Source: a virus
Virus record (IMG/VR): IMGVR_UViG_3300037961_006162
Location: 1-59,055 of that record
DNA: 59,055 nucleotides
Reading direction: 5' to 3' (one strand)
Below the pieces are notes generated by a model. The model searched no databases and was not told the DNA's origin. It saw only the letters and a program-made list of their open reading frames with translations. Each line of letters opens with the position of its first letter. Within the stretch, counting starts at the first letter, position 1. Both the position numbers and the translations under genes were made by a program. Shown piece after piece: positions 1 through 27,416 of the stretch.

Positions 1-283
1 AAGTAATTTTTATTGGAGTTGTATTTGCAATACTTACAAATCCTCCAGTTGCAGTTGCAGAACCATTTACATGTAATGGAGTTGTTGGTTGTGTAGTGCC
101 AATACCCACAGAAAATCCACTACCAACAATAACATCAGATTGAACTTTACCTCCAATTGTGATATTTGTACTAATCGCAACATTTGGTGCATTCAGATTG
201 AGAGCAGTTGGACTTGTTATCTTAGGAGTGCCGGAGGAACCAATCAGGTTTATCCTCTTCACACCAAAATCTCTATCAGCCAT
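1..283 (-). CDS. Tail-fibre-like virion protein, N-terminal part (runs off the left edge)
   Basis: The ATG is at 283 and the frame stays open to base 1, so only about 94 N-terminal residues are visible. It opens MADRDFGVKRINLIG and continues with beta-rich, Thr/Ile-rich sequence containing VGIGTTQPTTPLHVNG, a segment typical of cyanophage fibre and trimeric appendage proteins. Its first ~45 residues are clearly paralogous to the protein starting at 3544 (MADKSFGVRQLNLIG). It follows the subtilase gene ending at 306. No Shine-Dalgarno is visible; the leader is A-rich. By analogy with its two paralogues, a subtilase gene may follow outside the window (inference). Confidence 0.8.
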   Translation of the reverse strand, partial: MADRDFGVKRINLIGSSGTPKITSPTALNLNAPNVAISTNITIGGKVQSDVIVGSGFSVGIGTTQPTTPLHVNGSATATGGFVSIANTTPIKIT

Positions 284-297
284 ATGTCTTTTTTAGT

Positions 298-305
298 TAT
301 TTATT
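298..305 (-). promoter_or_regulatory. Candidate T4-type late promoter (AATAAATA)
   Basis: Read on the minus strand this is AATAAATA, matching the NATAAATA late -10 element of T4-like phages. It sits between the stop of the subtilase gene (306) and the ATG at 283, leaving a leader of under 10 nt if initiation is about 7 nt downstream. The same AATAAATAACTAAAAA context occurs before the paralogous gene at 3544. Confidence 0.45.
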
Positions 306-2393
306 TTAGTATGAAAAATCAATACCTTCAATTGCTACATTGTTAATTGAAGGAGACTCACCACCACTATATGGGTTGTATAATATTCTTGGAGCTGCAC
401 CCCTTAGGTTCGCATTACGTAAGGTGTATAAGGGGCTAGAAACTCCATACGGAGTATACCAGTAATTTTTGGTTGTTGGATCATTAAATGGCGAAAACCA
501 ACCATACGTATTTAAATAGTTATTCTGCTTTGCAGCTTCATCATCAGTAGTCCCAATTCCTACAACAGTAGCATTATCCTGAACCCAATTTTTAACTGAT
601 CTAGAATCTGCATCTGGATTTACTTCCAAATATAATGCGATGACTCCAGTTGCAACTGGAGCAGCAGCAGAAGTTCCACCAAAGTTATTATCATAAAATC
701 TAGTATCATCAATACGCACATAATCATCATAACCAGCATTAATAGCAGTTTGACCTGCTGCTAGTACAGTTTCTCCAGGTGCCCAGATATCAATACCGGG
801 ACCATTGTTTGAAAAATATGCTTTGTACTCATCACCTTTATAACTGGTCGATCTAGCCATGGCACCAACACATATGACAGGATGAAAGTCTGTTTTTTCA
901 TCAAACCCTATTCCAGAAGGATGCATCCAATCTCTATGTCCAAATGGACTAACGCCCGATATACCTTGAAATGAGAAAGTACCACCCCATGGATCATCAT
1001 TAGTTAGGTAGTCCAAACGATGAGGATCATTTGCACCAATTCCCATTCTTTGATTTTGATTTCCTCCCGAAGCAACAAAGATAACACCTTCTGCCATCAT
1101 CTCATCAGCAGCAGTATCGGTTGAATTTGAATGGGAGGCAGTTAAGAATTCCTTATAAGTGGTGCCAACAACAGTATAAAAATCAAGACCTCCAACTGCC
1201 GCAGTAATTCCAGCACCTGTTATGGAAGAAAGTGCACTACTATGTGCACTGCTAGTAGCAAAAGTGCCAGCTATACCCGCAAAACTAAAATCTTTGTAGT
1301 AACCACTATTATAACCATGAACATTCATATATCCCTTATAACTCCAACTACCATTAACAATTGTTGGATTTTTTTTGCCAGTTTCTGGATTGATTGGTTT
1401 ATACTTATGAAAAAGTTTCATCATATCATATGCTACTTCAGCTTCAAAACTTCCACTAAGAGCATTTATACTCCAAATGTTTGCTTCAAAAGCACTACCA
1501 AAGTTATTACCTGCCGCTAAAGATGCACATGAAGTTCCATGCCCAGCGGCCATAGCATTAGTACCATCCGTATTTGATCCCAAAGAGTTGTTCTCAGTAT
1601 AATTCCAAACACCACCACCAACTACCTGTGTTATATTTCCAATTCCAGAAAACTGTGCAGATCTATTATTTGTAAACCACCACCAATATTTGGCATCAGT
1701 TGTATTAATTCCTATACGACCATCAGATTTTGTATAAGTTTTATTATTTGTTGTAAAATAATCTGGATCAATATAGAATGGACCATCAAGAAGAATATCT
1801 CTAACTCTCGATTGTCCATTTGCATCCATAAACTCTGGATGATATTGTAAAACTCCGGTATCCATAATAACGAGATCTACATTTTTTCCAGTAGCTTGAT
1901 AATCTATATCCCTTTGAACAGAGTTACTAGCAGGATAAACCATAAGTGGCTCACCCGCCACCGCAGTGGGATCACATGCACCAGCGTTGGCACTAAAGTC
2001 TATAACACTTCTATGATTTACTCTTGATACACCCCAATTACTTCTATTCTGTTCATTCTCGTAGTCAGGATTACTACCCGCCTGCCATGGGGGAGACGTT
2101 CTATAAAATTTTGTACATCTTTTAAACCTTTTTGCATCAATTGATGGTTTTGGATATAAATCTGGATAATGTTCAGGAGATAATTCGATCCATTTAATAT
2201 GAGGATGTGTAGCAATTTCTGCTGCTTCTTCCTCAGTCAATTCATATGTTCCTCTTGTAGGACTGTGTTCTTTACAATCACTACATGTTACTTGTCTATC
2301 GGGAATACCATCTTGATTAGAATCTACGATTAATGCATTGTGAATTTCAGACCAGTATTCTGGATTTGTAACTGCCAACGTATATTTTCTCAT
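306..2393 (-). CDS. Subtilisin-like serine protease (S8 family), virion-associated
   Basis: 695-residue subtilase. The catalytic triad is visible: Asp178 in VIMDTGV, His285 in GHGTSCA and Ser575 in GGTSAAAP; an oxyanion-hole Asn lies in ASGGNQNQ. The first ~110 residues form a domain shared with the other subtilase at 3566-6907: it ends in a TRGTYELTEEEAAEIATHP segment that resembles an inhibitor/propeptide-like domain and carries a CSDC pair. No signal peptide is seen. The gene overlaps the stop of the preceding fibre gene by one base (TGATG), so translation is probably coupled. Its place among fibre genes suggests a structural or processing protease acting on the virion or host surface (inference). 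Protease fold is near certain; target unknown. Confidence 0.9.
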   Translation of the reverse strand: MRKYTLAVTNPEYWSEIHNALIVDSNQDGIPDRQVTCSDCKEHSPTRGTYELTEEEAAEIATHPHIKWIELSPEHYPDLYPKPSIDAKRFKRCTKFYRTSPPWQAGSNPDYENEQNRSNWGVSRVNHRSVIDFSANAGACDPTAVAGEPLMVYPASNSVQRDIDYQATGKNVDLVIMDTGVLQYHPEFMDANGQSRVRDILLDGPFYIDPDYFTTNNKTYTKSDGRIGINTTDAKYWWWFTNNRSAQFSGIGNITQVVGGGVWNYTENNSLGSNTDGTNAMAAGHGTSCASLAAGNNFGSAFEANIWSINALSGSFEAEVAYDMMKLFHKYKPINPETGKKNPTIVNGSWSYKGYMNVHGYNSGYYKDFSFAGIAGTFATSSAHSSALSSITGAGITAAVGGLDFYTVVGTTYKEFLTASHSNSTDTAADEMMAEGVIFVASGGNQNQRMGIGANDPHRLDYLTNDDPWGGTFSFQGISGVSPFGHRDWMHPSGIGFDEKTDFHPVICVGAMARSTSYKGDEYKAYFSNNGPGIDIWAPGETVLAAGQTAINAGYDDYVRIDDTRFYDNNFGGTSAAAPVATGVIALYLEVNPDADSRSVKNWVQDNATVVGIGTTDDEAAKQNNYLNTYGWFSPFNDPTTKNYWYTPYGVSSPLYTLRNANLRGAAPRILYNPYSGGESPSINNVAIEGIDFSY

Positions 2394-3544
2394 CAGCTCA
2401 GTTCCTCCCTCCTGTAACTATAAGTAACAATTCCATTAACTCCAGCCTCCGGTGTAAACTGAAGTCGAACAGTACCACTACTAAGTGTTGCACCTACAGA
2501 AACTAAGAGATCATTACTATGCATGATTCCATATTCTTCTGAATATGCATTTGTTCCATCATCCATAACAAGAACTCTTTGGGATTGAATACCAGATGTA
2601 TGTTGGAAAAATAGTATATATTCTGTATTTACATAAGTAGAAGCATTATAAGTGTTTAGTTGGTATGTAACACCTGCGGTAACGTTCATGTTACCATTAG
2701 CCTCAGTTCCACTAGCAGAAGCTGCAAAAGTTATGCTATCACCACTTGCATTTGTGGTAATAGTCATCCGATTACCAGCAACAAGGGTTAAAGTATCTGT
2801 AGCACTATCAGCAACTACATCACTTTGACCAGAAACTGAAATAGTTTTAAATGCTTCAGAAACACTTCCACCTCCTCCACCACCAGTGATGTTGATTGTA
2901 GAAATACCTGATGAAGGAGAAGTGATTGTAGATATGCCTGCTCCTCTAAAGTCAAGGAAGGTAACTCCAAATCCTACATTACCGCCTGATGTTTTAATAC
3001 CAACACCAGATTGAGGTAGTCCTGTCAGTGCAGAACCATCACCACTAAAACTGGTTGCTGTACAAACACCAGTGATATTAATTCCACCAGTTCCATTAAT
3101 AAGTTTCGAATTGAGATCTAAGTTTCCACCAAGTTGTGGTGTAATATCATCTTTAACCTCAGATATACCAGTATCTGCTGTATCAGTAGAAATTTCAACA
3201 GTCACAACAGCACCAGAAATTGTGGCAGTTACACCAGTTCCTACAAAATTAATAGTTTGTGCAGTTCCAACAGCAGATGTATTAGACTGAATTCCTACAC
3301 CAGATCCTACTGCCGTAAGTCCACTCAGTTGAGAACCATCACCATAATATTTTGTTGCACTAATGGTTCCAGTGGAACCATACATTGTAATTGCAGATCC
3401 AACAGAAGAAATACCACCAACAGTAACATTTGTGCTAATCGCAACAGTTGGTGCATCTAAATTTATTGTATCAGAACTCTCTATGGTCGGAGTACCAATT
3501 CCTATTAAATTTAGTTGCCTTACTCCAAAACTTTTATCCGCCAT
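2393..3544 (-). CDS. Tail-fibre-like virion protein, partner of the downstream subtilase
   Basis: 383 residues, repetitive beta-rich sequence (Ser/Thr/Gly/Val/Ile). It starts MADKSFGVRQLNLIG, as does the partial gene at the left edge. The middle has the recurring fibre module VGSAITMYGSTG...YGDGSQLSGL and a GDGSALTGL repeat. The last ~110 residues (GIQSQRVLVMDDG to YSYRREEL) form a domain shared with the C-terminus of the 6904-8505 protein, probably a receptor-facing or oligomerisation head. It has its own late-type promoter at 3563-3570 and overlaps the next gene, a subtilase, by one base. A virion fibre role is inferred from composition and context. Confidence 0.75.
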   Translation of the reverse strand: MADKSFGVRQLNLIGIGTPTIESSDTINLDAPTVAISTNVTVGGISSVGSAITMYGSTGTISATKYYGDGSQLSGLTAVGSGVGIQSNTSAVGTAQTINFVGTGVTATISGAVVTVEISTDTADTGISEVKDDITPQLGGNLDLNSKLINGTGGINITGVCTATSFSGDGSALTGLPQSGVGIKTSGGNVGFGVTFLDFRGAGISTITSPSSGISTINITGGGGGGSVSEAFKTISVSGQSDVVADSATDTLTLVAGNRMTITTNASGDSITFAASASGTEANGNMNVTAGVTYQLNTYNASTYVNTEYILFFQHTSGIQSQRVLVMDDGTNAYSEEYGIMHSNDLLVSVGATLSSGTVRLQFTPEAGVNGIVTYSYRREELS

Positions 3545-3562
3545 TAGACATACGTTTTTAGT

Positions 3563-3570
3563 TATTTATT
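3563..3570 (-). promoter_or_regulatory. Candidate T4-type late promoter (AATAAATA)
   Basis: The minus strand reads AATAAATAACTAAAAA, the same 16 bases as at the 298 site. The element overlaps the TAA stop of the subtilase gene at 3566, so the promoter is built into the end of the upstream coding sequence. The ATG served is at 3544, about 19 nt away. Confidence 0.5.
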
Positions 3571-6500
3571 TCATCACAATACGAGTAGACCCATTAAAGG
3601 TCAATCCATTACCACTTATAAATTTAACACTGTCTAATTGTTGTGGGATGGGAGAAAAATATATCCTTTTCTGGTTGTCTATGGCGTTGGTGGGGCCAAT
3701 ATTACCCGGATGGCCAGTGTATTGGTTTTCGTAATCAATACGATCATCATCCAAAACTATATGTATTCCTGGCCATATGTGTGCGGGGGTTCCAACTCCA
3801 TCACCATAAAATGTATCATTTACTGATTGGGGAAGTCTATTGGGACTTATAGTAAAACTCATGGTGGGGTTATTATTAGTAAAAGTATGATAACTTGGCA
3901 GGGTTCCAAGGAGATCATAGTCTTGTTGGTATATCAACTTATACCAATTCATGTATATTTTCAGACCCTCAACGTCGCTACCGTTGGCCCTTAGTGTGAA
4001 AGTTGCTGTAGTGCCAACTGTTATATGTGTTGGGTATGAATCCCAGGTAAATACTGGATCAGCAGTATTATCATTAATGATAACATTATTACTTGTCGCC
4101 AATACTGATCCACCAAATTGAGGACGTATTCTCAAATAAAGCGATTCGTCTTCTACTGTATGATCTTTTACAGGTATTACATTAATTGTTCCCACACCAG
4201 AACTAACTGTTACTATTCCAGAACTTGTACTAACTGTTCCATTTGTGATAATACCTGCAGTAATAGATGATTCAAAATCATATGGTCTGTTAAGATCCCA
4301 ATATAAATTTGTGCCATTAGAAAAACTTGGTGCAGATATCTCAAAAGTTCCCGTGGAGCCTTCATCAATAGATGTTGGAGTTGTTGTGAAAGTTACTGTT
4401 GGAGCATCAGAATCAACAATTGTAATGTACTTGGATGTTGCAAGAACAGTATCTGCAATTCCAGTACCTGTACGAACTCTAATCCTAAATGATTCTTTTG
4501 TTAACTCTTGCGTGGAATCAGTTGCAATACCTAAAGATATGGTTCCAATACCACTTACTACATTAAAACTTCCAGTCAAAGAATTAGAATCAAAGTCAGA
4601 TGCACTAATCGTTGAAGCAACACCAACATCAGTCGTGTAGTAATATATTCCATCAAAAGCATCTGTAGTTACTGCAATTTCTACAGTATCTCCTTCCGTA
4701 GGAGTGTGGTTACTTATAGATAATTCAAATGCATTATTTGGTTCATTCCCAGTAGGTTTATCCCATGCAATATATCCTGGATGTCCCTGCATACTGAAAT
4801 AATATCCAGAGTAGTTATAAGCATTTGCAGTTGTTGACTCAGTTCCATAATGAAAATTGGAAGAAGATATAGTTCCAAGTCCAACTATCCAACTTCTTAT
4901 ATCACTATAATCCCAAGATCTGTTATATTGCATCTTGGTGGCAAGAAGTCCAACAAATATAGGACATGCTGAACTAGTTCCGCTGAATGTATTATCATAA
5001 GACTTTATTGAAATCTGCCCATCGGTAGTATAAGTATGATCATATCTATGATATGCTCTGCCACCGAATCCTACTCTCTGGGCATAAAGATCAGAAGCAG
5101 CAAGGGTGTCGTGAGCTGCTGCAAATACATCCACTGCTTCTCCCATATTACTATAACTTGTTCTTCTTTCTTTAGTAGTAGCATCCGAATCAAAAGAATA
5201 CTGATTACTCATACTATCAAGAGCACCAACAGATATAGTTTTATATGTATAAGGAGAAGATGATGTAATTATTCCAATTTGTCCCGGGAATCCTTTTCTA
5301 TTAACAGCATGAGAATATTGAATGCCATACATGGAAGTGTAAGTATAATTAGTAGACTTAGCATCTTCTAAAGCAGTATAATTTGAACTTGCAAAATAAT
5401 TATTGTAGTCTGGATGATCACTGTTAACCTGTTTTTGATTTCGGTTTCCAGCAGCATGTACAAATATCACTCCAGAATCACATAGTTCTTCTCCTGCTTC
5501 TATTACACTATTATCGGTATCATAAACAATATTATATCTACCACCCATAAAATTATCTAAAAATTCAGGTCTAGTACCTGACGTATAAGCTATTCCAGCA
5601 ACCGTTCCATCAGTTGCTGATGGTCTAAACCAATAATATCCAGAAGAAGATGGACTTAATCTATTAGACCAACTATTACTCGATATTGTTGGATCTTTTG
5701 TTCCGTATGTTGGATTAATTGGTTTTATTTGATGAAATATTCTTTGAAGATCAAATCCAGTTTCCCACCCATTATGATTGTCTCCATATAAGTTCAAAAA
5801 CCACTTATTGGCATTATATGCCCATCCATATTGTCTTCCATATGCCTGTGAGGCACAAGGTGTTCCATGATATCCAGTTGCAGTTTGGCGTCTCCGATCA
5901 CTTCCATTGCAGCTTGATCTAGTGTATTGACCATCAATTGATAATGTTCCAAAATCATTATCGCCAGTAGCACTTCCACCATTCCCACTACTTACAAATT
6001 TAGCAGACCTATGACTGGTGCTATCGTTTTCCCACCACTCATGCGCTGCTAGGTCAGTAGGAACAATAGTCCCATCCCATCTTTTCATCAATTTTGATGG
6101 ATTGGCATTAAAAAAATCTGGATCAAGATAATAAGGAGCGTCTAAAATAAGATCTAGTAGATCACATGTTCCATTACCTGGAAGTACATTTCCACCTCGA
6201 TAATTTATTGGTCCTCCAAGATGGTTTTGAAATTCAATGTGGCCAAACCACATGTCTTGGTCACAAACAATTATATCAACATCACTTCCATCTCCATATT
6301 GGGCGATTCTATTATTGAAAATTGTTGCAGCAGTATTTCCAGAGCCAACCCATGGATCTTCTTGTTCCATGTGTCTTAATAACTGATAACCTCCTCTGTT
6401 TTTAAGATCACTACCTGGAAGTTTATCAGCGTCATCTGAAGTAGGAAATATACCCCACTCATAGCCATCGAAAGTGCTTATCTGTTCCCAAAGGTCTCTT

Positions 6501-6907
6501 TGATGTTTAACTTTGGTGGAATAACGATATACTTTAGTTGCATCTGCAATATCATCTGGATTATCCATAAAGGTTCCAGGATATCTTGCAGCATTTATAT
6601 TAACGTATCTAACCCTTGGATGATTTTTTAATTCTTCTGCTTCAGAATCCGATAGTAAATATATTCCTCTCCTAGGAGCATGTCTACAATCGTTACAACA
6701 TTCACAACAATGATCTGGAATATTATCTTCTAGTGTACCATCTTGCATCAATACTTCATGAATATATTGCCAATCTTCGGCACTATGACAACCAACATAA
6801 TATTCTTTTTTAGCATCTGGATCAGTTGGAACTTTTTTTAGAGTATCCTTAAACTGAAGAAATGATTGCTCCCTAATCTCATAATTTAAACTATTAGTCG
6901 TAATCAT
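3566..6907 (-). CDS. Large subtilisin-like protease with Calx-beta/Ig-like C-terminal repeats
   Basis: 1113 residues. The subtilase core shows Asp216 in IIVCDQDMW, His347 in GYHGTPCA and Ser645 in FSGTSSACP, with the oxyanion Asn in HAAGNRNQ. Residues ~1-140 are paralogous to the N-terminus of the 306-2393 protease and carry a dense Cys cluster (CCECCNDC). Beyond residue ~720 come beta-sandwich repeats of Calx-beta or Ig-like character (TPTEGDTVEIAV, SIDEGSTGTFEI), which the shorter protease lacks. It overlaps the upstream fibre gene by 4 nt (ATGA). The repeats suggest it is anchored in the virion as an appendage (inference). Substrate unknown. Confidence 0.9.
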   Translation of the reverse strand: MITTNSLNYEIREQSFLQFKDTLKKVPTDPDAKKEYYVGCHSAEDWQYIHEVLMQDGTLEDNIPDHCCECCNDCRHAPRRGIYLLSDSEAEELKNHPRVRYVNINAARYPGTFMDNPDDIADATKVYRYSTKVKHQRDLWEQISTFDGYEWGIFPTSDDADKLPGSDLKNRGGYQLLRHMEQEDPWVGSGNTAATIFNNRIAQYGDGSDVDIIVCDQDMWFGHIEFQNHLGGPINYRGGNVLPGNGTCDLLDLILDAPYYLDPDFFNANPSKLMKRWDGTIVPTDLAAHEWWENDSTSHRSAKFVSSGNGGSATGDNDFGTLSIDGQYTRSSCNGSDRRRQTATGYHGTPCASQAYGRQYGWAYNANKWFLNLYGDNHNGWETGFDLQRIFHQIKPINPTYGTKDPTISSNSWSNRLSPSSSGYYWFRPSATDGTVAGIAYTSGTRPEFLDNFMGGRYNIVYDTDNSVIEAGEELCDSGVIFVHAAGNRNQKQVNSDHPDYNNYFASSNYTALEDAKSTNYTYTSMYGIQYSHAVNRKGFPGQIGIITSSSPYTYKTISVGALDSMSNQYSFDSDATTKERRTSYSNMGEAVDVFAAAHDTLAASDLYAQRVGFGGRAYHRYDHTYTTDGQISIKSYDNTFSGTSSACPIFVGLLATKMQYNRSWDYSDIRSWIVGLGTISSSNFHYGTESTTANAYNYSGYYFSMQGHPGYIAWDKPTGNEPNNAFELSISNHTPTEGDTVEIAVTTDAFDGIYYYTTDVGVASTISASDFDSNSLTGSFNVVSGIGTISLGIATDSTQELTKESFRIRVRTGTGIADTVLATSKYITIVDSDAPTVTFTTTPTSIDEGSTGTFEISAPSFSNGTNLYWDLNRPYDFESSITAGIITNGTVSTSSGIVTVSSGVGTINVIPVKDHTVEDESLYLRIRPQFGGSVLATSNNVIINDNTADPVFTWDSYPTHITVGTTATFTLRANGSDVEGLKIYMNWYKLIYQQDYDLLGTLPSYHTFTNNNPTMSFTISPNRLPQSVNDTFYGDGVGTPAHIWPGIHIVLDDDRIDYENQYTGHPGNIGPTNAIDNQKRIYFSPIPQQLDSVKFISGNGLTFNGSTRIVMK

Positions 6908-8505
6908 AATACACCTCTTCTTACAAATCTATATGTTGTTAATCCAGTGCTCCCAGCATATTGACTATCTCCATCAGCAGTGGCTGCAAGCTCAGGAACT
7001 AACGATATTGAACAAATACCACTACTTGATGTTCCACTTATATAGAAGAAGGGTCCAGTAACTGAAGTAACTTCTGGTGATGTTTCATACATAACTGCAT
7101 ATTCTGATGTGTATATGTTAGATCCAGTCTGCATAACTAGAGTCTTTTGTGCTTGAATACCTGCAAAATTTTCAATATGAATCATATATTCATAAACTTT
7201 GAAGTCCACATTTGATGTATTTGTATCGATGGTGTCAATTATAGTTCCTACACCAGCATTAACAATATATGTACCAAATCCAGTTGCAACACCATATCTA
7301 TCAACCTGTAATGTTGATCCGGGATTTGTAGTGCCAATACCAACATAAGATGCGGTGGTATGAATACCAGAATTTGTCTGATCGTTACTAAAATATCCAG
7401 TGCCTCCACCACCTCCTGTTATTTCAACAGTGGCAATTCCTGCAGAAATTGTTGTAGTAACTCCTGATCCTACAAAATTTATAGTTGCTGCTGTTCCTAC
7501 ATTTGACCCTTCGTCCTGAATAACAACACCACTACCTGTTCCAGTAACATTGGTTAGTGCAGAACCATCAATTGCAGGTAGTGCTCCTGTTAATTGTGAT
7601 GAAGGGAGATTGGTTAAATTAGCACCAGAACCACTAAATGATGTTGCAGTTAAGATACCAGAAATAGAAACATTACCACCATCATCTTCGGTTAAACCAT
7701 CCGAATCAATTTTTTTGGCTTTTAAATTCTTTAAATTATTACTACTATCACGAATTTCAAGATCCCCAGTATGAATATTTCTCTTTAACTTTGTATCGCC
7801 AAGTTTAATTTCATTCTCATTAGGATCAAGAGTAATGGTTCCAGTACCAATAGAAAGAATACCAGTAACTCTTGCGTCACCATTGACAACTAAATCTTCT
7901 GTGAAGTATCCAGTATCAACTCCTACATGAAGTTCTGTGGTAGTAACAACACCAACAGATAATCCAATACCACTTATATTACCTAAACCAAGAACATCAT
8001 CAAGTGTTTGGGTTGAACCGCTTCCGACACTTCCACTTCCACCATTAAACTGAACCCATTGGGCAGAAGTGCCTCCAGCACCAACACCATCATCATAATA
8101 TACATGACCAACAGCAGTGTCACTATTCCACCAAAGATCACCAGGATTAGGATTACTTGGAGGATTATCGCTGATAGCAACTGTTCCACCAACACCAGTC
8201 AGTGCTGAACCATCTCCAGCAAATGCAGTTGCAGTTACTGTACCATCAACATCTAGTTTTGTGGTAGGTAATGTGGAGCCAATACCAACATTACCAGCAG
8301 TGAAATATGCGTTATATGTATCTGTTCCCGTACCAACTCTAAAAGGGTTGATAGCAATAACTGTGGTTCCAATACCTACATTTTTGGATGCGTAGAGATA
8401 TCCATCATAGGTATTAAGAGCTATTTCGCCTAAAGGAAGTTGGTCTGATGTTGGAATCTTTCCTTGTACCGACGACCTTTTAAGCCTAATCTTTGGGTCT
8501 GCCAT
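6904..8505 (-). CDS. Tail-fibre-like virion protein, first of the fibre-subtilase pairs
   Basis: 533 residues. The N-terminus (KIRLKRSSVQGKIPTSDQL, then LPLGEIALNTYDGYLYA) is the attachment-type motif seen at the start of many phage fibre proteins. Repetitive beta modules follow, including GDGSALTGV, VGIGSTLPTTKLDVDG and GSGANLTNLPS. The C-terminal ~110 residues (GIQAQKTLVMQTG to YRFVRRGVL) match the C-terminus of the 2393-3544 protein. A good Shine-Dalgarno (TGAGGA) lies about 6 nt before the ATG. The leader carries two palindromes (8518-8550) downstream of a late promoter at 8561. The gene overlaps the large subtilase by 4 nt. Fibre assignment is by composition and motif. Confidence 0.8.
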   Translation of the reverse strand: MADPKIRLKRSSVQGKIPTSDQLPLGEIALNTYDGYLYASKNVGIGTTVIAINPFRVGTGTDTYNAYFTAGNVGIGSTLPTTKLDVDGTVTATAFAGDGSALTGVGGTVAISDNPPSNPNPGDLWWNSDTAVGHVYYDDGVGAGGTSAQWVQFNGGSGSVGSGSTQTLDDVLGLGNISGIGLSVGVVTTTELHVGVDTGYFTEDLVVNGDARVTGILSIGTGTITLDPNENEIKLGDTKLKRNIHTGDLEIRDSSNNLKNLKAKKIDSDGLTEDDGGNVSISGILTATSFSGSGANLTNLPSSQLTGALPAIDGSALTNVTGTGSGVVIQDEGSNVGTAATINFVGSGVTTTISAGIATVEITGGGGGTGYFSNDQTNSGIHTTASYVGIGTTNPGSTLQVDRYGVATGFGTYIVNAGVGTIIDTIDTNTSNVDFKVYEYMIHIENFAGIQAQKTLVMQTGSNIYTSEYAVMYETSPEVTSVTGPFFYISGTSSSGICSISLVPELAATADGDSQYAGSTGLTTYRFVRRGVL

Positions 8506-8572: not shown

Positions 8573-9271
8573 TTAAATCCCGTATCTTCCTCTGAGTGCA
8601 TTAAAGTTTTGTTCAATTTCTGCAGTTGTCAATGCTTTATTATCATATGCTTTTATACTGGCAATTTTTCCATTAAATCTTTGATCAAAACTTAAAGTTT
8701 GATTGAACATACCAATACCAATAGCAACAGTGCTCCCATACAATGAGGATGACGGATTTGATGAGTGAACTTCAGTTTTATTTTGATACATTTTAATAGT
8801 TGTTCCATTATATGTTACAACCAATTGATACCAAGTAGAATTAGAAAGTGCAGTATCCGATGCAATTGTAACCGCACTGCTTCTAGTAGATGATGTCCAA
8901 TACACAAACCTAACTTTACTATCACTATTTGTTACTTTCCATTGCCATCCATTACCATCATTATTCCCCGAATCTTGTGTAAATAATTGCCCTTCAGTAC
9001 CGTCATGAGAATTTCCTGTTCTATTAATCCACATTTCCATACTAAAACTTCCTCCAGTAAGGTTTATTCCTGAAAGAGTATTATCAGATGTAGAAGTTAT
9101 AGTAAATGATTCTCCAGTATTGTGAGTATTATTTGATATTGAAGCATTATTAGAGGAACCACTAAGATCTGTCCATGTGGATCCACTACCACTATAAGAT
9201 TTTGTATTGGCAGCATCAAGACATAATACAAGATTATCAGTAATTATTTGTGGTGAATGTCCGAGTCCCAT
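8573..9271 (-). CDS. LamG/concanavalin A-like lectin-fold virion protein
   Basis: 232 residues forming one LamG-like (Laminin_G_3 type) beta-sandwich: SFSMEMWINRTG, WYQLVVTYNGTTIKMYQNK and NGKIASIKAYDNKAL are the diagnostic strands. It starts MGLGHSPQIITDNLVLCLDAAN and ends LTTAEIEQNFNALRGRYGI. Both ends are shared with the two genes upstream (9271-10023 and the C-terminal half of 10023-11618), so these are tandem paralogues. It overlaps the neighbour by 1 nt. A carbohydrate-binding appendage role is inferred from the fold; such domains commonly bind host surface glycans. Confidence 0.8.
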   Translation of the reverse strand: MGLGHSPQIITDNLVLCLDAANTKSYSGSGSTWTDLSGSSNNASISNNTHNTGESFTITSTSDNTLSGINLTGGSFSMEMWINRTGNSHDGTEGQLFTQDSGNNDGNGWQWKVTNSDSKVRFVYWTSSTRSSAVTIASDTALSNSTWYQLVVTYNGTTIKMYQNKTEVHSSNPSSSLYGSTVAIGIGMFNQTLSFDQRFNGKIASIKAYDNKALTTAEIEQNFNALRGRYGI

Positions 9272-10023
9272 TAGAGTCCAAACCTCGCTTTATAAACATT
9301 GAAATTTTGTGACACTTCTGTTGCGGTTAGTGCCTTATTGTATATCCGAACAGTAGATAAGTATCCATTAAATTGAGAAGCATCTTCGGATGGTATAGGA
9401 TTTTGAGTGGTCATTCTGTACCGACCAAAATCAGTAACTATGGAATCTGGAAGTGTATAACTTCTAGTCTTAGTTCCCTGCAAACTATTATTAAGATAAA
9501 AATTTACATTAGAACCATCCCAAGTACCAACAAGATGATACCAGGTATTGAGTGAAACTGTACTAGAAGTATCAATGGTGCCAGAAGCAGCGCCACCTAA
9601 TCTGAACTGAATATAATTACCAGAAGTTTTAAAATCAAATCTTAAACTACTTCCACCACCTTGAATTATAAATGAACTATCACCATCATCTCCAGTCATA
9701 CTAGTAAGTCTTACCCATGCCTCTAGAGTTAATGAATTATTTGCATAAAATCCTGTAATGTTTCCACATTCAAAACGATCATTATATCCATCAAAAAGAA
9801 AAGAACCATTACCAACACTACTAGAATAAGTAGGACCATACTTGATTGCATTATTACCTGTGGTTAAATTGAACCAAGTAGTTCCAAATCCACCATTAGA
9901 TAAAGAACTTGAAACACCTGCATCAAGATTCAATAAAAGATTGTCTTGAACTACTGCTTGTTTGGCAGCAAATGTTGGATTGGAATCAATCCACCATCTT
10001 TGTGGTCCAGAAATGATAGCCAT
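9271..10023 (-). CDS. LamG/concanavalin A-like lectin-fold virion protein
   Basis: 250 residues, a second LamG-like domain: NSLTLEAWVRLTSM, WYHLVGTWDGSNVNFYLNN and NGYLSTVRIYNKALTATEV are the core strands. The end LTATEVSQNFNVYKARFGL matches the ends of both neighbours. It differs in its N-terminus (IISGPQRWWIDSNPTFAAKQAVVQD), which replaces the shorter lead of its paralogues. It overlaps both neighbours by single bases, so the three are one translationally coupled set. Probable adhesin or fibre tip module. Confidence 0.8.
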   Translation of the reverse strand: MAIISGPQRWWIDSNPTFAAKQAVVQDNLLLNLDAGVSSSLSNGGFGTTWFNLTTGNNAIKYGPTYSSSVGNGSFLFDGYNDRFECGNITGFYANNSLTLEAWVRLTSMTGDDGDSSFIIQGGGSSLRFDFKTSGNYIQFRLGGAASGTIDTSSTVSLNTWYHLVGTWDGSNVNFYLNNSLQGTKTRSYTLPDSIVTDFGRYRMTTQNPIPSEDASQFNGYLSTVRIYNKALTATEVSQNFNVYKARFGL

Positions 10024-11618
10024 TAGATTCCATACCTCTTTCTAAGTGCTTTGAAGTTTTGTTCGATTTCTGATGCTGTCAGTACTCGCTCATAAAAACT
10101 ACATCCACCAAGTGATCCATCAAAAGTGTGATAGTTACTAGATGCTTTGTGTAATATTTTAAAGAATCTTGCATTTGATCCTGAACCAGAATATGCACCA
10201 CCACCAGTATGAGATGCATCTAAACTACCATTCAAATAAATTTGCTTTTCATATGTGCTGTTGTTCAGTGTATAAACAATATTGTACCAAGTACCTGTAG
10301 ATATAGTAGCATTTCCTGTTAAATCATCAGAAGTTAAACCAAAAAACAATTTGTTACTATTATAATACCTAGAAGATAAAAGAAGTCCTTGTCTTGTAGC
10401 ATTAGTTCCATGAGTGAATAATGTATAATATTGATTAGAAGATGCTCCAAGAGTATCAAATTTAACCCAAAAACTAGCTGTCCAATTTCCTTGCAAAAAT
10501 GAATCTGTAAATACAGAATTATCTGTCATAATACCATAAGTACCATCAATATCGAAAGCAGAAGAAACTCCATCACTCACATATGATGATTTGCCAAATG
10601 TTGCTTCGGTTCTATTATTACTAAAAGTTATATTATTAATTCTAGAAGATGTAGATGCATCTCCTGCTTCTTCTGGATATTTTCTACCAAATCCCCAAAC
10701 AATTCTAGCAGCACCGGGAGCACCATTACCACCTGGTTCCTCATCAGTATTCCATCCGGCACCACCGCCACCACCACCTCCATAATTTCCACCATTTCCT
10801 GCCACTCCAGTAAAACTAGAACCAAATGTACCATTACTGCCACCAGAACCACCAATTCCACCATTTGGTGTTGGTGGTGAGCCGCCGGATCCTGATCTAT
10901 TTTGAGAAAGTAATCCAACACCTCCTCCACCTCCACCACCAGCTTTAGGAAAACTATCACTTCCTCCACCGCCACCTGCACCACCAGAACCACCATATCC
11001 ACCTATTGATGTTGAGGAAGATGCACCTGCTCCACCATTGCCAGCGTATCCACCAGCACCTCCACCTCCGCCACCATCTCCTCTTGTATTATCGGTAGCC
11101 TCTCCGCCAGCACCACCAGTTCCGCCACCATCTCTTTGCGGTCCACTACTAGGACCACCACCGCCACCAGATCCAGGTATTCCATGAGTGCCTTTGCCGC
11201 CACCACCTCCATGTAAAAGTACTGTACTACCTCTCCTTATTTGTGAAGAACCACCATTAGAACCAGCACCTGCAGGAGCAGATCCACCGCCACCACCAGT
11301 ACCAATAATAATTGTTAGGGTTTCTCCAGGTGTTACTGTAAAAGTTCCGTATGAAAGGCCTCCTCCACCTCCACCACAACCACCTTCTTCATCATTATTT
11401 CCATTACTATCTCCACCAGCACCTCCTCCACCTGCACCCACTACAACAGCAGAGACTTGTGTTACTCCATCAGGTACAGTCCAAGTGCTAGTTCCTGTTG
11501 AAGTAAATAACTGTTGTCCAAATGTACCTTCACTCGAATTATATGACTTTACATTTGCAGCATCAATACAAAATGCAAGTCCAATAGTAACCGTTTTTGG
11601 ATTATATCCAACTGCCAT
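10023..11618 (-). CDS. Glycine-rich plus LamG virion protein
   Basis: 531 residues in two parts. Residues ~25-310 are a glycine-rich domain starting FTSTGTSTWTVPDGVTQVSA, followed by long GGGG runs and YGTFTVTPGETLTIIIGTGG; the same architecture occurs at 14591-15886. Such glycine-rich domains in phage adhesins often fold as polyglycine-II sandwiches (established for T-even gp38-type adhesins; applying it here is inference). Residues ~340-531 are a LamG-like domain (GNWTASFWVKFDTLG, WYNIVYTLNNSTYEKQIYLN) ending EIEQNFKALRKRYGI like its two neighbours. A late promoter is at 11639-11646. Confidence 0.8.
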   Translation of the reverse strand: MAVGYNPKTVTIGLAFCIDAANVKSYNSSEGTFGQQLFTSTGTSTWTVPDGVTQVSAVVVGAGGGGAGGDSNGNNDEEGGCGGGGGGLSYGTFTVTPGETLTIIIGTGGGGGSAPAGAGSNGGSSQIRRGSTVLLHGGGGGKGTHGIPGSGGGGGPSSGPQRDGGGTGGAGGEATDNTRGDGGGGGGAGGYAGNGGAGASSSTSIGGYGGSGGAGGGGGSDSFPKAGGGGGGGVGLLSQNRSGSGGSPPTPNGGIGGSGGSNGTFGSSFTGVAGNGGNYGGGGGGGAGWNTDEEPGGNGAPGAARIVWGFGRKYPEEAGDASTSSRINNITFSNNRTEATFGKSSYVSDGVSSAFDIDGTYGIMTDNSVFTDSFLQGNWTASFWVKFDTLGASSNQYYTLFTHGTNATRQGLLLSSRYYNSNKLFFGLTSDDLTGNATISTGTWYNIVYTLNNSTYEKQIYLNGSLDASHTGGGAYSGSGSNARFFKILHKASSNYHTFDGSLGGCSFYERVLTASEIEQNFKALRKRYGI

Positions 11619-11837: not shown

Positions 11838-13595
11838 TCAGAATGCTCCACAATCTATCGTTGCATTATTGATGACTACTTCATTATTAGTACAACCAAT
11901 AACCTCTACAGCAGAACCAGTGCATCCATTTACATATAAAGAAGCAACTTCCAATGCGCCACTAGTGTTATTAGTAAGAACTCCAGTATTTTCTGAAACA
12001 TCGGCAGAAACAACAATTCTTGAAACACTATCATCCCAGTATACTGCTGCCTTTTTAGCAACACCACCAGGACCAGCAGTAAAGTAATTTAAAAGAATAC
12101 CAACATCCTTATTCAGATCACTTCCTGGAGCACTACCACTAACTGTACCAAGATCAAGAAGTTGATCATCAATTGTTGAAATTGTACTTTTGACAGTTGT
12201 AGTGCTGCCATTAACAATTAAATTGCCACCAACAGTTAGATGATTTCCAATAGTAACATCATTGGGAAGACCGATCGTAATGGTCTGGTTTGATGCTACG
12301 GTCTCAATCTCATTAGCAGTACCAGCAATCGTAAGTGATTGAGAATCCAAATCAACTGCACCAGTTCCAGAATCACCGGCAACATCGAGATCTTGTGCTG
12401 TTACTTGGGAGTCAACATATGCTTTAATTGACTGTTGAGTTGCTAGAGCATCTGCTCTATCAGATGTCATAGCATCTTCATCAAGAATTGCTGTAACAGC
12501 AACTCCAGCCATACTTAAATTACTGATTGTAAGAAGATTGGAACTAGGATTGTATGTAATGCCAGCATCAGTTTTAACACTTTCTTGAGTTTCAGACGCA
12601 TTATTAGAATCTACAAATGTAATATAGTGCGCTTGATCAATATCAGTACTCGCTACTGCAACAGAAGATCCACCATCAGATGTTACTGTAACAATGCCTG
12701 ACGATAATGCAGAAACATTCAGTCCAGATCCAAAATCAATTGTTCCTGCAGATCCGACAACTGAACCAGAATCTTTAACTGGAACTAAAATTGGTGTTGG
12801 TGTGCCAGTAACAGTAACAACACCAGCAGAAGCTGGACTTACTGTGAGGTTAGCACCAAAGTCAATTGTCCCTGCAGCTCCTATAAGAGTGCCATTATCC
12901 TCAATAATGATTGAGGATCCTCCACCCCCACCACCAGAGATAAGATTTGTACTAATAGAAGTAATTCTTCCATTAGAAACCGTGATTGATGGTGATACTG
13001 AAGAACTACCATAGGTTCCATCTGGAACAGTAACTGTTCCAGTCAGGCCAATACCTGATCCTGTGAATGTTGTAGCAGTGAGAGCATTACCAACAATTAC
13101 ATTATCTCGAAGTCCAATTTGAATTTGGTCATCAGATACTGTAGTTTCTATCTCATTTACCGTACCTGCAAAGGTTAATGTATCTCCAGTACTAAAAGCA
13201 TCATTAGATCCATTATCAGCAGCAAGAGTAAATGATGATGCTGCAGGTGATGCGAATGTTAAATTTCCTGCGCCATCAGTTTTTAAAACATCATTTGCAT
13301 TACCATCAGTTCCAGGCATTGTATAAGTTACAATGCCAGAAAGAGTATTTGGCGATTTAAGTGTAATATAATCCGTTCCGCTATTTGTTCCCTCTACAAG
13401 GTTAACGCCACTACCAACCGTTGTTGAGTTTACCGACCAATATCTTCCAGAACCTACAAACTGGTTATTTGATACTTCTGATGTAAGACCCACATAAAAA
13501 TCATAACTATCTGTAGTAAATCCAGGTTCTCCAGCTCTTAATCCAGGAAGATTTGCAAGAAGACCTCTTTTTACCTGAAGAATAGGAGCAGCCAT
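11838..13595 (-). CDS. Tail-fibre-like virion protein
   Basis: 585 residues. The N-terminus AAPILQVKRGLLANLPGLRAG, followed by GEPGFTTDSYDFYVG, is the common fibre N-terminal motif (compare LKRSSVQGKIPTSDQLPLGE in 6904-8505). The body is repetitive beta sequence with near-repeats such as GTIDFGANLTVSPASAGVVT and GTIDFGSGLNVSALSSGIVT. The tail has two Cys-containing turns (NGCTGSAVEVIGCTNNEV) and ends IDCGAF, a Gly-x-Phe terminus like those of the two small genes upstream. A perfect TATAAATA late promoter lies 30 nt before the start. Confidence 0.75.
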   Translation of the reverse strand: MAAPILQVKRGLLANLPGLRAGEPGFTTDSYDFYVGLTSEVSNNQFVGSGRYWSVNSTTVGSGVNLVEGTNSGTDYITLKSPNTLSGIVTYTMPGTDGNANDVLKTDGAGNLTFASPAASSFTLAADNGSNDAFSTGDTLTFAGTVNEIETTVSDDQIQIGLRDNVIVGNALTATTFTGSGIGLTGTVTVPDGTYGSSSVSPSITVSNGRITSISTNLISGGGGGGSSIIIEDNGTLIGAAGTIDFGANLTVSPASAGVVTVTGTPTPILVPVKDSGSVVGSAGTIDFGSGLNVSALSSGIVTVTSDGGSSVAVASTDIDQAHYITFVDSNNASETQESVKTDAGITYNPSSNLLTISNLSMAGVAVTAILDEDAMTSDRADALATQQSIKAYVDSQVTAQDLDVAGDSGTGAVDLDSQSLTIAGTANEIETVASNQTITIGLPNDVTIGNHLTVGGNLIVNGSTTTVKSTISTIDDQLLDLGTVSGSAPGSDLNKDVGILLNYFTAGPGGVAKKAAVYWDDSVSRIVVSADVSENTGVLTNNTSGALEVASLYVNGCTGSAVEVIGCTNNEVVINNATIDCGAF

Positions 13596-13624
13596 TTTAT
13601 CCCAGATAGAGGTTTATTTTTTAT

Positions 13625-13632
13625 TATTTATA
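13625..13632 (-). promoter_or_regulatory. T4-type late promoter, exact TATAAATA
   Basis: An exact match to the T4 late -10 octamer on the minus strand, between the stop at 13648 and the ATG at 13595, with a 30-nt gap to the start codon. This is one of two exact octamer copies in an intergenic position (the other is on the plus strand at 45967). Confidence 0.7.
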
Positions 13633-13647
13633 TTTCTTATAGAAGGG

Positions 13648-13884
13648 CTAAAATCCCCCACCATCAAAATCATAATCAAAGGCTTGGAGATCTCCAAGTT
13701 CTTGTTCTACCTGATCAATAAAATCTTCTGGAATAGGAGTTTCTGTAGATTTGATAAGAACATCATCAACTGATACTACTTCAAATTTATCAGTTGTAGC
13801 ATTATATTTTAATACATATTTATTTTTAGTACTATCAAGAGGTGATACGTTTGCGTCTGATAAGTCTCTTACTCTAGTTGACAT
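13648..13884 (-). CDS. Small virion-cluster protein, paralogue of its upstream neighbour
   Basis: 78 residues. The core NATTDKFEVVSVDDVLIKS, then IPEDFIDQVEQELGDL, aligns with SDNDKFILVTPDSMLLTS and LPDAFIEQIGDEI in the 104-residue neighbour, so the pair is a tandem duplication. It ends DGGGF. Start and upstream stop overlap by one base (TAATG), with the upstream GGAGCATTC acting as ribosome-binding site. Probably a small fibre or collar component. No named family known to me. Confidence 0.7.
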   Translation of the reverse strand: MSTRVRDLSDANVSPLDSTKNKYVLKYNATTDKFEVVSVDDVLIKSTETPIPEDFIDQVEQELGDLQAFDYDFDGGGF

Positions 13885-14198
13885 TAGAATGCTCCTGCAT
13901 CAAGATTACCTGAAGCAACAGTAATTTCATCTCCGATCTGTTCAATGAAAGCATCTGGTAAATCATTGTCATCAACTGATGTCAACAACATAGAATCTGG
14001 TGTAACCAATATAAACTTATCATTATCACTATCATACGAAACAATCGAACCATCATCAGAACTATCTAAAGTCCCAAAAGCAGTATCACCCATTTCTCTA
14101 ATTGTGGATGGTTGTCTTGTCGTACTGACAGTTACTTTTGCTGATGTTTTTCTTTTTGTTACAGTACCTGAAGAGTCTGATTTTCTAACTAATGGCAT
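13884..14198 (-). CDS. Small virion-cluster protein, paralogue of its downstream neighbour
   Basis: 104 residues. A basic, Ser/Thr-rich N-terminus (KSDSSGTVTKRKTSAKVTVS) precedes the same core found in the 78-residue neighbour. It ends NLDAGAF. The last codons GGA GCA TTC TAA TG double as the Shine-Dalgarno and overlap the ATG of the next gene. It lies 5 nt downstream of the 112-residue BppU-like gene. Function unknown; structural role inferred from context. Confidence 0.7.
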   Translation of the reverse strand: MPLVRKSDSSGTVTKRKTSAKVTVSTTRQPSTIREMGDTAFGTLDSSDDGSIVSYDSDNDKFILVTPDSMLLTSVDDNDLPDAFIEQIGDEITVASGNLDAGAF

Positions 14199-14203
14199 AA
14201 GAC

Positions 14204-14542
14204 TTAATTGGTAGTGATTCCTGCTGTCACAAAAGCCATACCCTCAACTAATCTTGAAACAGCACCTGATGGAGAAACCAATCTTACATCATAAACATGT
14301 CTACCAGGTGTTAGTCCAACAGTAGTTCCAGATGTCATTGCAATAGAAACTTCACCCACACCAGATACAATACTCACCGAAAATGAAGTTGAGGTAGTTG
14401 CCCCTGGGTGTTTTTTTAAAATGGCAGCACCAGTGTAACCAGCAAGATTTGATAGAGATCCATCAGATTCTGTCGAAACAAAAGTTTCTGAAAAATCTGA
14501 ACCTTGTGGGATAGAAATATTAAAAACTGGATTAACTGCCAT
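14204..14542 (-). CDS. BppU N-domain-like baseplate/fibre protein
   Basis: 112 residues, a single beta-sandwich. The opening FNISIPQGSDFSETFVS and the closing LTPGRHVYDVRLVSPSGAVSRLVEGMAFV resemble the N-terminal domain of baseplate upper proteins (BppU/DUF2479 type) and small proteins found beside phage fibres. In that family the domain attaches receptor-binding proteins to the baseplate. The assignment rests on motif resemblance alone. A late-type promoter lies 21 nt upstream. Confidence 0.6.
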   Translation of the reverse strand: MAVNPVFNISIPQGSDFSETFVSTESDGSLSNLAGYTGAAILKKHPGATTSTSFSVSIVSGVGEVSIAMTSGTTVGLTPGRHVYDVRLVSPSGAVSRLVEGMAFVTAGITTN

Positions 14543-14562
14543 TATTCAAATATATTTTTAAC

Positions 14563-14570
14563 TATTTATT
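14563..14570 (-). promoter_or_regulatory. Candidate T4-type late promoter (AATAAATA)
   Basis: The minus strand reads AATAAATAG in the short gap between the stop at 14591 and the ATG at 14542. It would start the group 14204, 13884, 13648. Confidence 0.55.
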
Positions 14571-14590
14571 ATTTGATAGTCTGAATAAAT

Positions 14591-15886
14591 TTATTCTGAT
14601 CCAAACGTGGTGTTATATTCGGGGAAAGATCTACCCGTCTCAACACCTGCTGTTGGGTTTCCACCAAATATAATTCTTACAACACCATTGGCACCATGAC
14701 CTCCGGTTTGTCCAATTGTGATTGTATCATCATGAGCATAATGTGTTGCTCCACCTCCTCCTCCACCAAATTGTCCTCCTTCTCCACCCCTGGTCGTTGT
14801 CCAACCGATAGTATCTCCGTTTGAATGAAATGGGGGAGTTTCGTGTGCCGTTCTTCCACCTAAGTAAATGTATCCAGAAGAACCACCATACTCACCAAGA
14901 CTTGTATCATATAATGTGCTGGTGGGGGTCCGACCTGAACCACCTTCTCCTGGGTGACCTCCATCTCCACCATTTTTGGTCTGATCATAAGTACCGTTAT
15001 AATCACGATATGGGTGATAAACACCGACTCCACCCCCACCATTAGAATGTGCCTGTATCAAATTGCCAGCCCCATAAATGTTATGTCTATCATATCCACC
15101 TCCACTTCCACCACCAAAGGTAGAACCAAAACCATCACCATTCTGACCAGCGTTGTTAGAACCACCTGAACCTAGTCCAACATGGAGGGCAGGGTCCGAT
15201 CCGTAAGAATATCCACCTGCACCACCTCCTCCACCACCTTCATTCCACCATTCACCATCACCACCACTACCTCCTGTCTGCCCACCTTCTCTTTCTGTTC
15301 CCCCAGTACTTCCACCACTACCACCATCAGCATCAGTTGAATAAGTGTTATGAATACCTGCTCTACCGCCCCCACCTTCAAGAAGAACTGTAGCACCTCT
15401 GAGTATCTTAGAATCTCCCCCATGTTGACCACTTCCAGCAGCAGCACGTAAACCTTGAGGTTTGAATAAATCCCCACCAGTACCTCCATAACCAACTCGA
15501 ATTGTCAACGTTTCTCCAGGAGTAACTGAAAATGTTCCGTAAGCAAGTCCACCACCTCCTCCACCACCTCCGCCAGTCTCCGCGTAATTGTTAGGAATAC
15601 TTGAATGTGCGGCCCCATACTGATTTGGGAAGGTCTCACCATCAAGATCTCTTTTATTATGACTTGCTGAGGCACCACCTCCCCCACCAACACAAACAGC
15701 AGAGATATATGTTACTCCATTGGGAACAACAAATGTATCAGACAAATATTGAGAACTATCCGTATCAGTGTTGAAGTTGCTACCATCCGCAATATAAACA
15801 GCATGACCCATTGGGTGAGGCCCACCTGTATGGGTATCTCCAGAAAATCCAAGTTTAAGGTGATATGAATTTGAAATTGGTGACAT
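14591..15886 (-). CDS. Glycine-rich adhesin-like virion protein
   Basis: 431 residues, dominated by glycine runs. After a ~45-residue lead comes YLSDTFVVPNGVTYISAVCV, matching the start of the Gly-rich domain in 10023-11618, then YGTFSVTPGETLTIRVGYGG and many GGSGG blocks alternating with Asn/Thr/His-rich loops. It has no LamG domain. The composition suggests a polyglycine-II adhesin-like fold presenting variable loops (inference from T-even gp38-type adhesins). Start: ATG with CGGAGA upstream. Confidence 0.7.
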   Translation of the reverse strand: MSPISNSYHLKLGFSGDTHTGGPHPMGHAVYIADGSNFNTDTDSSQYLSDTFVVPNGVTYISAVCVGGGGGASASHNKRDLDGETFPNQYGAAHSSIPNNYAETGGGGGGGGGLAYGTFSVTPGETLTIRVGYGGTGGDLFKPQGLRAAAGSGQHGGDSKILRGATVLLEGGGGRAGIHNTYSTDADGGSGGSTGGTEREGGQTGGSGGDGEWWNEGGGGGGAGGYSYGSDPALHVGLGSGGSNNAGQNGDGFGSTFGGGSGGGYDRHNIYGAGNLIQAHSNGGGGVGVYHPYRDYNGTYDQTKNGGDGGHPGEGGSGRTPTSTLYDTSLGEYGGSSGYIYLGGRTAHETPPFHSNGDTIGWTTTRGGEGGQFGGGGGGATHYAHDDTITIGQTGGHGANGVVRIIFGGNPTAGVETGRSFPEYNTTFGSE

Positions 15887-15922
15887 ATTTTTTTCTCCGA
15901 TTATGTTACAAATAAAAATAAA

Positions 15923-17896: not shown

Positions 17897-17930
17897 GGGT
17901 TCACTATCCCCCTTGCTTTTGTATTTTTTC

Positions 17931-17945
17931 TATTTATTATTTATC
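17931..17945 (-). promoter_or_regulatory. Tandem late promoter elements (GATAAATAATAAATA)
   Basis: On the minus strand GATAAATA (17938-17945) and AATAAATA (17931-17938) overlap by one base, 35-50 nt before the ATG at 17896. The upstream copy overlaps the TAA stop of the 776-residue gene. Doubling may allow alternative starts. Confidence 0.55.
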
Positions 17946-20271: not shown

Positions 20272-20768
20272 TATTCTTGAGGTTGTACAGTAATTTCTAG
20301 TAGTGGTCTAACTGTTAATATTGCAGAACCTGATCTAAATGGTTCATTAACAGCATTGGCAGTTGATCTTGCTGTTCCCGCAACAACTGCAGAACCAACT
20401 GGTTGAGAATATGCACTTGGCACATAGTCTACAACCAACCAAAATTCTGTTTGATTGAGACTTTGATCAAATGCATCCTCAAGAAGTAACGTTGTTGTTC
20501 CAGTACCTATAAAGTTAACACCGACAGGAGTACCATCTTCCTTTAAAGGAGAACCATCAGTCAATGCACCAAGTACACTATTATACCATTGATAAGATAG
20601 TGTTCCATCATTTGCAGCAGGATTTGCTGGAGTTTGTTCTGGAAATGATGCTGTTGCAAAACCACTAAATTGTGCGGAGTTTGCAATACTAACAGTTGCA
20701 TCTACTGGTTCTGATATAAACGCCAGAATAGGGCCATTTATATCAAGTTGAGTTTGCTTTAAGACCAT
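20271..20768 (-). CDS. Ig-like virion protein
   Basis: 165 residues forming what looks like one Ig-like domain: PVDATVSIANSAQFSGFATA, then LSYQWYNSVLGALTDGS, with the YQWY strand typical of Ig/PKD-like folds. The C-terminal LTVRPLLEITVQPQE is a linker-type strand. Overlaps the next gene by 1 nt and follows the 1951-residue gene by about 9 nt. Ig-like domains on tailed phages commonly decorate virions and bind host polysaccharide weakly; that role is inference. Confidence 0.7.
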   Translation of the reverse strand: MVLKQTQLDINGPILAFISEPVDATVSIANSAQFSGFATASFPEQTPANPAANDGTLSYQWYNSVLGALTDGSPLKEDGTPVGVNFIGTGTTTLLLEDAFDQSLNQTEFWLVVDYVPSAYSQPVGSAVVAGTARSTANAVNEPFRSGSAILTVRPLLEITVQPQE

Positions 20769-27016: not shown

Positions 27017-27018
27017 AG

Positions 27019-27410: not shown

Positions 27411-27416
27411 AAAAAA

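Follow-up and report, generated by a model that had tools for sequence, protein, structure and literature searches.

Two consecutive fibre–subtilase–fibre units with exchangeable cargo in a T4-like cyanophage

Organization of the fibre and subtilase genes

The window analysed here was the complete 59,055-b virus record IMGVR_UViG_3300037961_006162, and its base 1 was therefore a contig end. It encoded a baseplate hub lysozyme, tail tube, tube cap, wedge, single-stranded DNA-binding protein, exonuclease and PhoH, and these genes indicated that the virus was a T4-like cyanophage. The subject of this study is a module of fibre and subtilase genes at the left end of the window, which was located inside the tail-fibre cluster, the same as in phage S-SCSM1. 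The module comprised five reading frames on the minus strand, as were all of its features given below: FibA (6904..8505, 533 amino acids), SubA (3566..6907, 1113 amino acids), FibB (2393..3544, 383 amino acids), SubB (306..2393, 695 amino acids) and an edge gene (2..283, 94 amino acids open and cut at the contig end). The initial annotation had placed these frames correctly, together with the overlaps of 4 nt between FibA and SubA (ATGA) and 1 nt between FibB and SubB (TGATG).

FibA and FibB shared a C-terminal domain (C-domain), which covered 6907..7281 in FibA (profile match at residues 409–529, E 2.5e-27) and 2396..2698 in FibB (residues 283–383, E 4.2e-39). The two fibres matched each other at E 7e-28 (blastp with the low-complexity filter off). 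FibB and the edge gene shared an N-terminus (E 1e-15), the N-motif, which spanned residues 1–44 of FibB (3413..3544, profile E 3.6e-22) and residues 1–48 of the edge gene (profile E 5.4e-28). Both kinships had been noted in the initial annotation. The C-domain of FibB was modelled with a mean predicted local distance difference test (pLDDT) score of 90.7 as an eight-stranded barrel, and the model matched residues 169–283 of T4 gp9 (1qex; Z 12.4, root-mean-square deviation 2.6, 104 residues aligned). The next structural matches were the C-termini of phage tailspikes. Matches of the C-domain profile to Staphostatin (E 0.41) were taken as chance.

SubA and SubB matched Peptidase_S8 (E 2.7e-13 and 4.6e-24), and the two PF00082 scores, the higher one first, were 85.7 and 50.3 bits against a cut-off of 21.8. 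This was the sole Pfam family listed for them at E 0.01 in a general Pfam scan, which included no test aimed at S77, and the C-terminal extension of SubA had no Pfam match at E 0.01. The full triads reported earlier were confirmed, together with the oxyanion Asn (D216/H347/N488/S645 in SubA and D178/H285/N445/S575 in SubB). In an alignment limited to subtilases of at least 450 amino acids, D, H and N were kept in 68/68 relatives and S in 67/68, the exception being the frame-broken L054. The Cys-bearing N-terminal domain was also borne out, and C37 of SubB was near-invariant (65/68 relatives). SubA and SubB matched PHROG 9158 (2e-86 and 1e-76) and shared 27% identity across 715 amino acids (E 2e-63). 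The SubB model had a subtilisin fold of the proteinase K group (Z ~22–23), with a mean pLDDT of only 54. The two proteins are subtilases with intact active sites and are predicted to be proteases. Among close protease pairs (n = 211), the ratio of nonsynonymous to synonymous substitution rates had a median of 0.20 and was never at or above 1, which indicated that the proteases were under purifying selection. Specialisation of the two divergent window proteases, as suggested in the initial annotation, is plausible.

The N-terminal domain of SubB (~residues 1–75, 2169..2393) was predicted to contain strands and helices in the order E2–8, H11–22, E47–52, H54–61 and E66–71, mostly with a pLDDT of 65–84. 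This is the order that we take to be that of the I9 propeptide. None of ten isolated N-domains matched Inhibitor_I9, and no match to the protease N-domain was found in a PDB search. The relative L153 gave a weak I9 match (E 0.0062), which was below the cut-off and at the expected end of the protein. The domain is thus a possible I9-type prodomain, judging from its predicted secondary structure.

In related loci, the fibre before the protease ended in the ~100-residue C-domain that also terminates FibA and FibB, and the gene behind the protease began with the N-motif common to FibB and the edge gene. A search of 50,697 phage records with the C-domain alone found 18 records, and the best place was directly before a subtilase in all of them. 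There were 20 places in total; the two extra ones arose because the downstream fibre of S-SCSM1, a phage present as two records, has a further C-domain. The N-motif alone was found directly behind a subtilase in 16/16 phage records. From IMG/VR, the best 80 of 265 and the best 80 of 170 C-domain relatives were fetched. The 80 loci fetched via the C-domain only contained 83 open reading frames (ORFs) with the domain, always 3–6 residues from the C-terminus, in fibres of about 160 to 1,770 amino acids. A protease followed 79 of the 82 readable ones: 75 had a subtilase directly next, three (L124, L126 and L127) once a spurious ORF was dropped, and L153 past an 85-amino-acid ORF. Of the other four among the 83, one ran into the end of its contig and three (L088, L094 and L129) were true exceptions.

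Judging from gene order in these relatives, the real unit is a fibre ending in a gp9-like C-domain, a cargo gene, and a fibre starting with the fixed N-motif. The window accordingly reads FibA(C)–SubA–FibB(N + C)–SubB–edge(N), in which FibB has the N-motif as well as the C-domain and belongs to both units, as the downstream partner of SubA and the upstream partner of SubB, so that two slots stand in a row. The pairing of fibre and protease proposed in the initial annotation was real; its unit was drawn wrongly, and it omitted the following N-fibre and the double membership of FibB. It had also proposed a probable third cassette at the left edge. The edge gene appears to be the ordinary downstream partner of SubB and announces no third protease, and that reading is probably wrong. 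Complete downstream fibres that also carried a C-domain were found in 6/99 cases in related loci (not dereplicated), and a protease followed in four of the six (FibB of the window, L124, its duplicate L127, and L136). The double layout was seen in L124 (= L127) and in part in L136, and L086 had two proteases in one slot; these four were the loci with two proteases among 184 protease-bearing IMG/VR loci (not dereplicated, frame-broken L054 counted as one). As far as sequence searches reach, the module is modular and widespread in cyanophages, both marine and freshwater. A search for the C-domain in genomes of bacteria and archaea gave 46 candidate stretches, none of which was confirmed.

Cargo exchange between constant fibre ends

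The covariation analysis used loci with both C-domain and N-motif, of which 116 were dereplicated to 66 cassettes. The distance correlation was 0.68 between C-domain and N-motif, 0.43 between protease and C-domain, and 0.42 between protease and N-motif. The excess of the C–N value was consistent, with a difference at or below zero in 0.1% of 1,000 bootstraps over loci. At set thresholds, 27 pairs had similar C and N with dissimilar proteases, and two pairs showed the converse on the C side. Loci L098 and S-SCSM1 shared 88–94% DNA identity in the C-domain up to the fibre stop, ~50% at the protease ends, and 93–97% in the downstream leader and N-motif. The drop at the protease start and the recovery past its stop indicated that whole protease genes had been replaced between constant ends. 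The idea of a matched set, in which each C-domain is tied to one protease clade and the window layout arose by the joining of two single cassettes inside FibB, had been prompted by the first loci and was not upheld on the 66 cassettes.

The content of the slot was also counted for 112 unique C-domain variants, a census that includes loci fetched by protease searches and is biased towards proteases. The next gene was a protease in 100 variants, a short ORF and then a protease in one, another protein and then an N-fibre in five, and the N-fibre directly in four; two reached the end of the sequence. The five non-protease cargos were LamG lectins (L176 and L190), beta-propellers with or without LamG (L155 = L088 and L156 = L094), and a stub of 136 amino acids (L185 = L129). 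Several proteases were fused to LamG or immunoglobulin (Ig)-like domains (L018, L092, L098, L056, S-SCSM1 and L027).

These observations bear on the first rival explanation, in which the subtilase is a fibre-maturation protease that cuts back the C-domain of the preceding fibre or the N-motif of the following one to permit folding or joining, and then leaves or stays. The initial annotation had likewise suggested that each protease cuts, matures or arms its partner. The coupling of the gene to the upstream fibre and its place between two fibre ends are as expected for such an enzyme, and in jumbo phages the processing of virion proteins is the presumed role of conserved peptidases (PMC7824862). 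However, the same C and N ends occurred with a lectin, a propeller, a stub or no cargo in 9/110 readable unique variants, and lectin, Ig and propeller domains that are fused to the protease or replace it have no trimming role. Between L098 and S-SCSM1, C and N were 91% and 96% identical while the protease fell to 28%, which would be odd for a co-adapted enzyme and substrate. Maturation of the partner is thus disfavoured, and we regard it as unlikely.

The slot proteases of both clades (A and B) ended in a short pattern like GLTFSGNVTIKF, the clade A model consensus. In the window, the 15-amino-acid tails were GNGLTFNGSTRIVMK in SubA (3569..3613), which is near the common tail and fails the strict pattern, and PSINNVAIEGIDFSY in SubB (309..353). 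When built on clade A, a model of the 15 C-terminal residues recognized clade B tails with an area under the curve (AUC) of 0.978 against 682 other C-termini, and the reverse gave 0.948; the 15 residues preceding the tail gave AUCs of 0.424 and 0.475 in the same cross-clade test. Pattern A matched 61/79 slot proteases, 4/682 other genes, and 4/9 proteases without detected partners. This pattern was written after inspecting the tails, and the cross-clade model gives a fairer comparison, albeit with the same set of sequences; the frame-broken L020 and L054 were excluded from both. With the clade A model, three of the five non-protease cargos (L156, L185 and L190) reached at least the 99.9th control percentile; L155 and L176 lay at 94.9 and 58.7, respectively. 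The DNA of L098 and S-SCSM1 differed just before the stop, which indicated that the tail was kept as protein. We propose that the common tail docks the cargo.

Two other treatments of the tail were rejected. A first ungapped model of the last 26 residues caught a clade-specific NPFAND stretch and was discarded. A resemblance between tail and N-motif was not upheld: the tail models missed the N-domain of downstream fibres, their best windows were scattered, and upstream fibres scored equally high.

Several loci outside these counts showed related arrangements. The stub in L185 (= L129), which lies between a C-fibre and an N-fibre, had last residues nearly equal to those of the protease in L193 (= L153) and looks like a remnant retaining only the tail region. 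A natural fusion of four LamG domains and a subtilase was found in L027 (6033–10463), with an N-fibre next and no separate C-fibre detected. The 2140-amino-acid virion-annotated protein in L004 (S-TIM54, 11995–18417) combined esterase-like, subtilase and Ig-like parts, and it had neither slot partners nor the tail. The top-scoring control for the tail model was a 165-amino-acid gene outside the slot in L062 (S-SSM7), which ended in NEQRLIVSGNITFTY and may be chance or an unrecognised cargo.

A putative fibre joint as a proposed protease mount

A TAAATA motif, which we take to be the core of the T4-type late promoter, was found within 45 nt upstream of 66/66 unique downstream fibres, 1/84 unique proteases, and 120/353 other genes. 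In the window, it preceded FibB (3563..3568) and the edge gene (298..303), not SubA or SubB. The protease gene overlaps or nearly abuts the upstream fibre gene and has no late-promoter-like motif of its own, which suggested that it is probably made with the upstream fibre. In the S-SCSM1 record, the upstream fibre, the protease-LamG protein and the downstream fibre were all tagged as 'virion protein', and 45 virion proteins of this phage were identified by mass spectrometry (PMC9602691). From the tag in this record, the slot protease is probably present in the virion; it probably sits on the outside.

The C-terminal domain of gp9 is the site of coaxial attachment of the long tail fibres in T4 (PMC3004832), and the fibre protein gp529 of phage RaK2 also has a gp9-like C-domain (PMC10253068). 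Because of the gp9-like fold, the adjacency of C and N, and their covariation, we infer that the C-domain and the N-motif form a fibre–fibre joint. On balance, we favour the reading that an exchangeable, virion-displayed protease is mounted at this joint and acts on host surface proteins. In this reading, the region contains, one after the other, two copies of a display module with three parts that belongs to T4-like cyanophages (Kyanoviridae and relatives). The upstream fibre ends in a beta-barrel shaped like the part of T4 gp9 that carries the long tail fibre, and the next fibre starts with the fixed N-motif, which would complete the joint. The gene between them supplies an exchangeable cargo, mostly a subtilisin-type protease, which is probably made with the upstream fibre and would probably sit at the joint, docked via its common C-terminal tail. 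On the virion exterior, the protease may cleave host surface proteins at adsorption or remove proteins that cover the receptor, and the I9-like N-terminal domain may keep it inactive until processed. FibB has both N and C, and it would therefore be a middle segment in a phage with two joints and two different proteases. Degradation of a host surface protein was among the alternatives offered in the initial annotation and was judged the best fitting of them, with the substrate itself still presumed.

A second rival explanation involves no docking. The C-domain would be a trimerisation cap only, and the protease a free late protein that acts inside the cell or during lysis on proteins of the host or the phage, with linkage reflecting co-inheritance. 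Gp9-like C-domains have indeed been described as folding or trimerisation domains (PMC10253068), and some covariation arises from co-inheritance alone. However, linkage alone predicts that neighbours covary more than the farther-apart C and N, and the opposite was observed. The LamG and Ig fusions, the common tail and the virion tag of the S-SCSM1 protease protein also speak against a free protein, and we consider this explanation quite improbable. That the protease is directed at phage competitors or releases progeny from the debris of the cell is compatible with a virion-displayed enzyme, and we give it very little credence, as the location among adsorption fibres favours entry.

Several findings weigh against a protease mounted at the joint. 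The fold of the C-domain is also found in tailspikes, as a plain trimerisation cap. Only 18/47 phage records with a SubB relative have the C-domain, and the proteases of L023 and L025 carry the tail pattern with neither a C-fibre nor a downstream N-fibre detected beside them. Of the two tails in the window, SubB fits pattern A and SubA does not. Clade A loci were closer to the FibA C-domain in 15/33 cases, and clade B loci to the FibB C-domain in 19/25. The tagged protein of S-SCSM1 is a protease fused to LamG rather than a protease by itself, and by our own count the tag occurs on 48 coding sequences, versus the 45 virion proteins reported in PMC9602691.

The mount proposed here can be compared with several known systems. 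The T4 gp9/gp34 long tail fibre resembles it in the fold of the C-domain, which in T4 carries the next fibre (PMC3004832). In contrast, the C-domain in the window ends fibres of diverse length rather than a gp9, and an extra cargo gene lies between; the likeness covers the C-domain only, so FibA and FibB are not classed as gp9 and the N-motif is not classed as gp34-like. The branched receptor-binding complexes of CBA120 and RaK2 also hold several exchangeable enzymes by docking domains; as described in PMC10253068, their enzymes are glycan depolymerases in trimeric spikes, whereas a separate protease with a common tail is found here. The cyanophage subtilases of PHROG 9158 or T4-GC292 (P-SSM2 PSSM2_297 and S-SSM7 SSSM7_232) belong to the same family and have the same gene order, but they are single-copy and annotated only as 'unknown function' or 'contains PF00082'. 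In T-even phages, the gp38 tip adhesin is encoded by a small accessory gene right downstream of the fibre gene for gp37, and its product sits on the fibre. The likeness to gp37/gp38 is one of working principle only, an accessory gene behind a fibre gene, as the cargo here is a subtilisin-type protease or a lectin and the partner domain is gp9-like.

The records and literature examined described the parts of the module solely as hypothetical proteins, S8 peptidases, subtilisin-like proteases or structural proteins. A description of the fibre/cargo/fibre module was not found in the literature searched, including the available parts of PMC3037559, PMC9602691, PMC9964418, PMC3004832, PMC10253068 and PMC7824862. 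Within this literature, the slot proteases would, if the proposed mount is true, be the first class of virion-displayed subtilisins used on host surface proteins. Phage fibres are known to bear enzymes that cut glycans, and an exchangeable protease displayed on an invariant mount would attack the host surface in a different way. It would also suggest that proteins act as barriers or receptors in marine picocyanobacteria, for which, to our knowledge, few phage receptors have been described. With docking ends that are constant and a tail that is short, the proposal could be tested on purified proteins, and further cargo could be sought by means of the tail sequence. More tentatively, the ends may form a plug-in display platform that combines a gp9-like socket with a fixed plug on the following fibre and with cargo of unrelated folds, which a shared short tail would bring to the joint. 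Whole proteases, lectins and propellers would be swapped in it, and one fibre could contain several joints, each with its own enzyme.

Other genes in the window

Next to FibA, three successive LamG (concanavalin-like) genes with 1-nt overlaps were found at 8573–11618 on the minus strand. The first-transcribed one was also glycine-rich, and all three were without the C-terminal tail of the slot cargo. Also on the minus strand, adjacent genes of 776 and 165 amino acids (17941–20768, 1-nt overlap) matched different parts of phrog_24848 and look like one gene that was split or rebuilt. Genes for tRNA-Thr(tgt) and tRNA-Leu(taa) were located at 26943–27411 (minus strand), between the fibre cluster and the baseplate genes. 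Neighbouring genes of 214 and 263 amino acids at 27933–29380 (minus strand) hit each other's PHROG families (28536 and 17490) and are probable tandem paralogues. A 1060-amino-acid tail-module protein (38190–41372, minus strand) had an endolysin-like stretch at residues ~540–780, and the comparable region of S-SCSM1 encoded large tail-module lytic proteins that were tagged as virion proteins.

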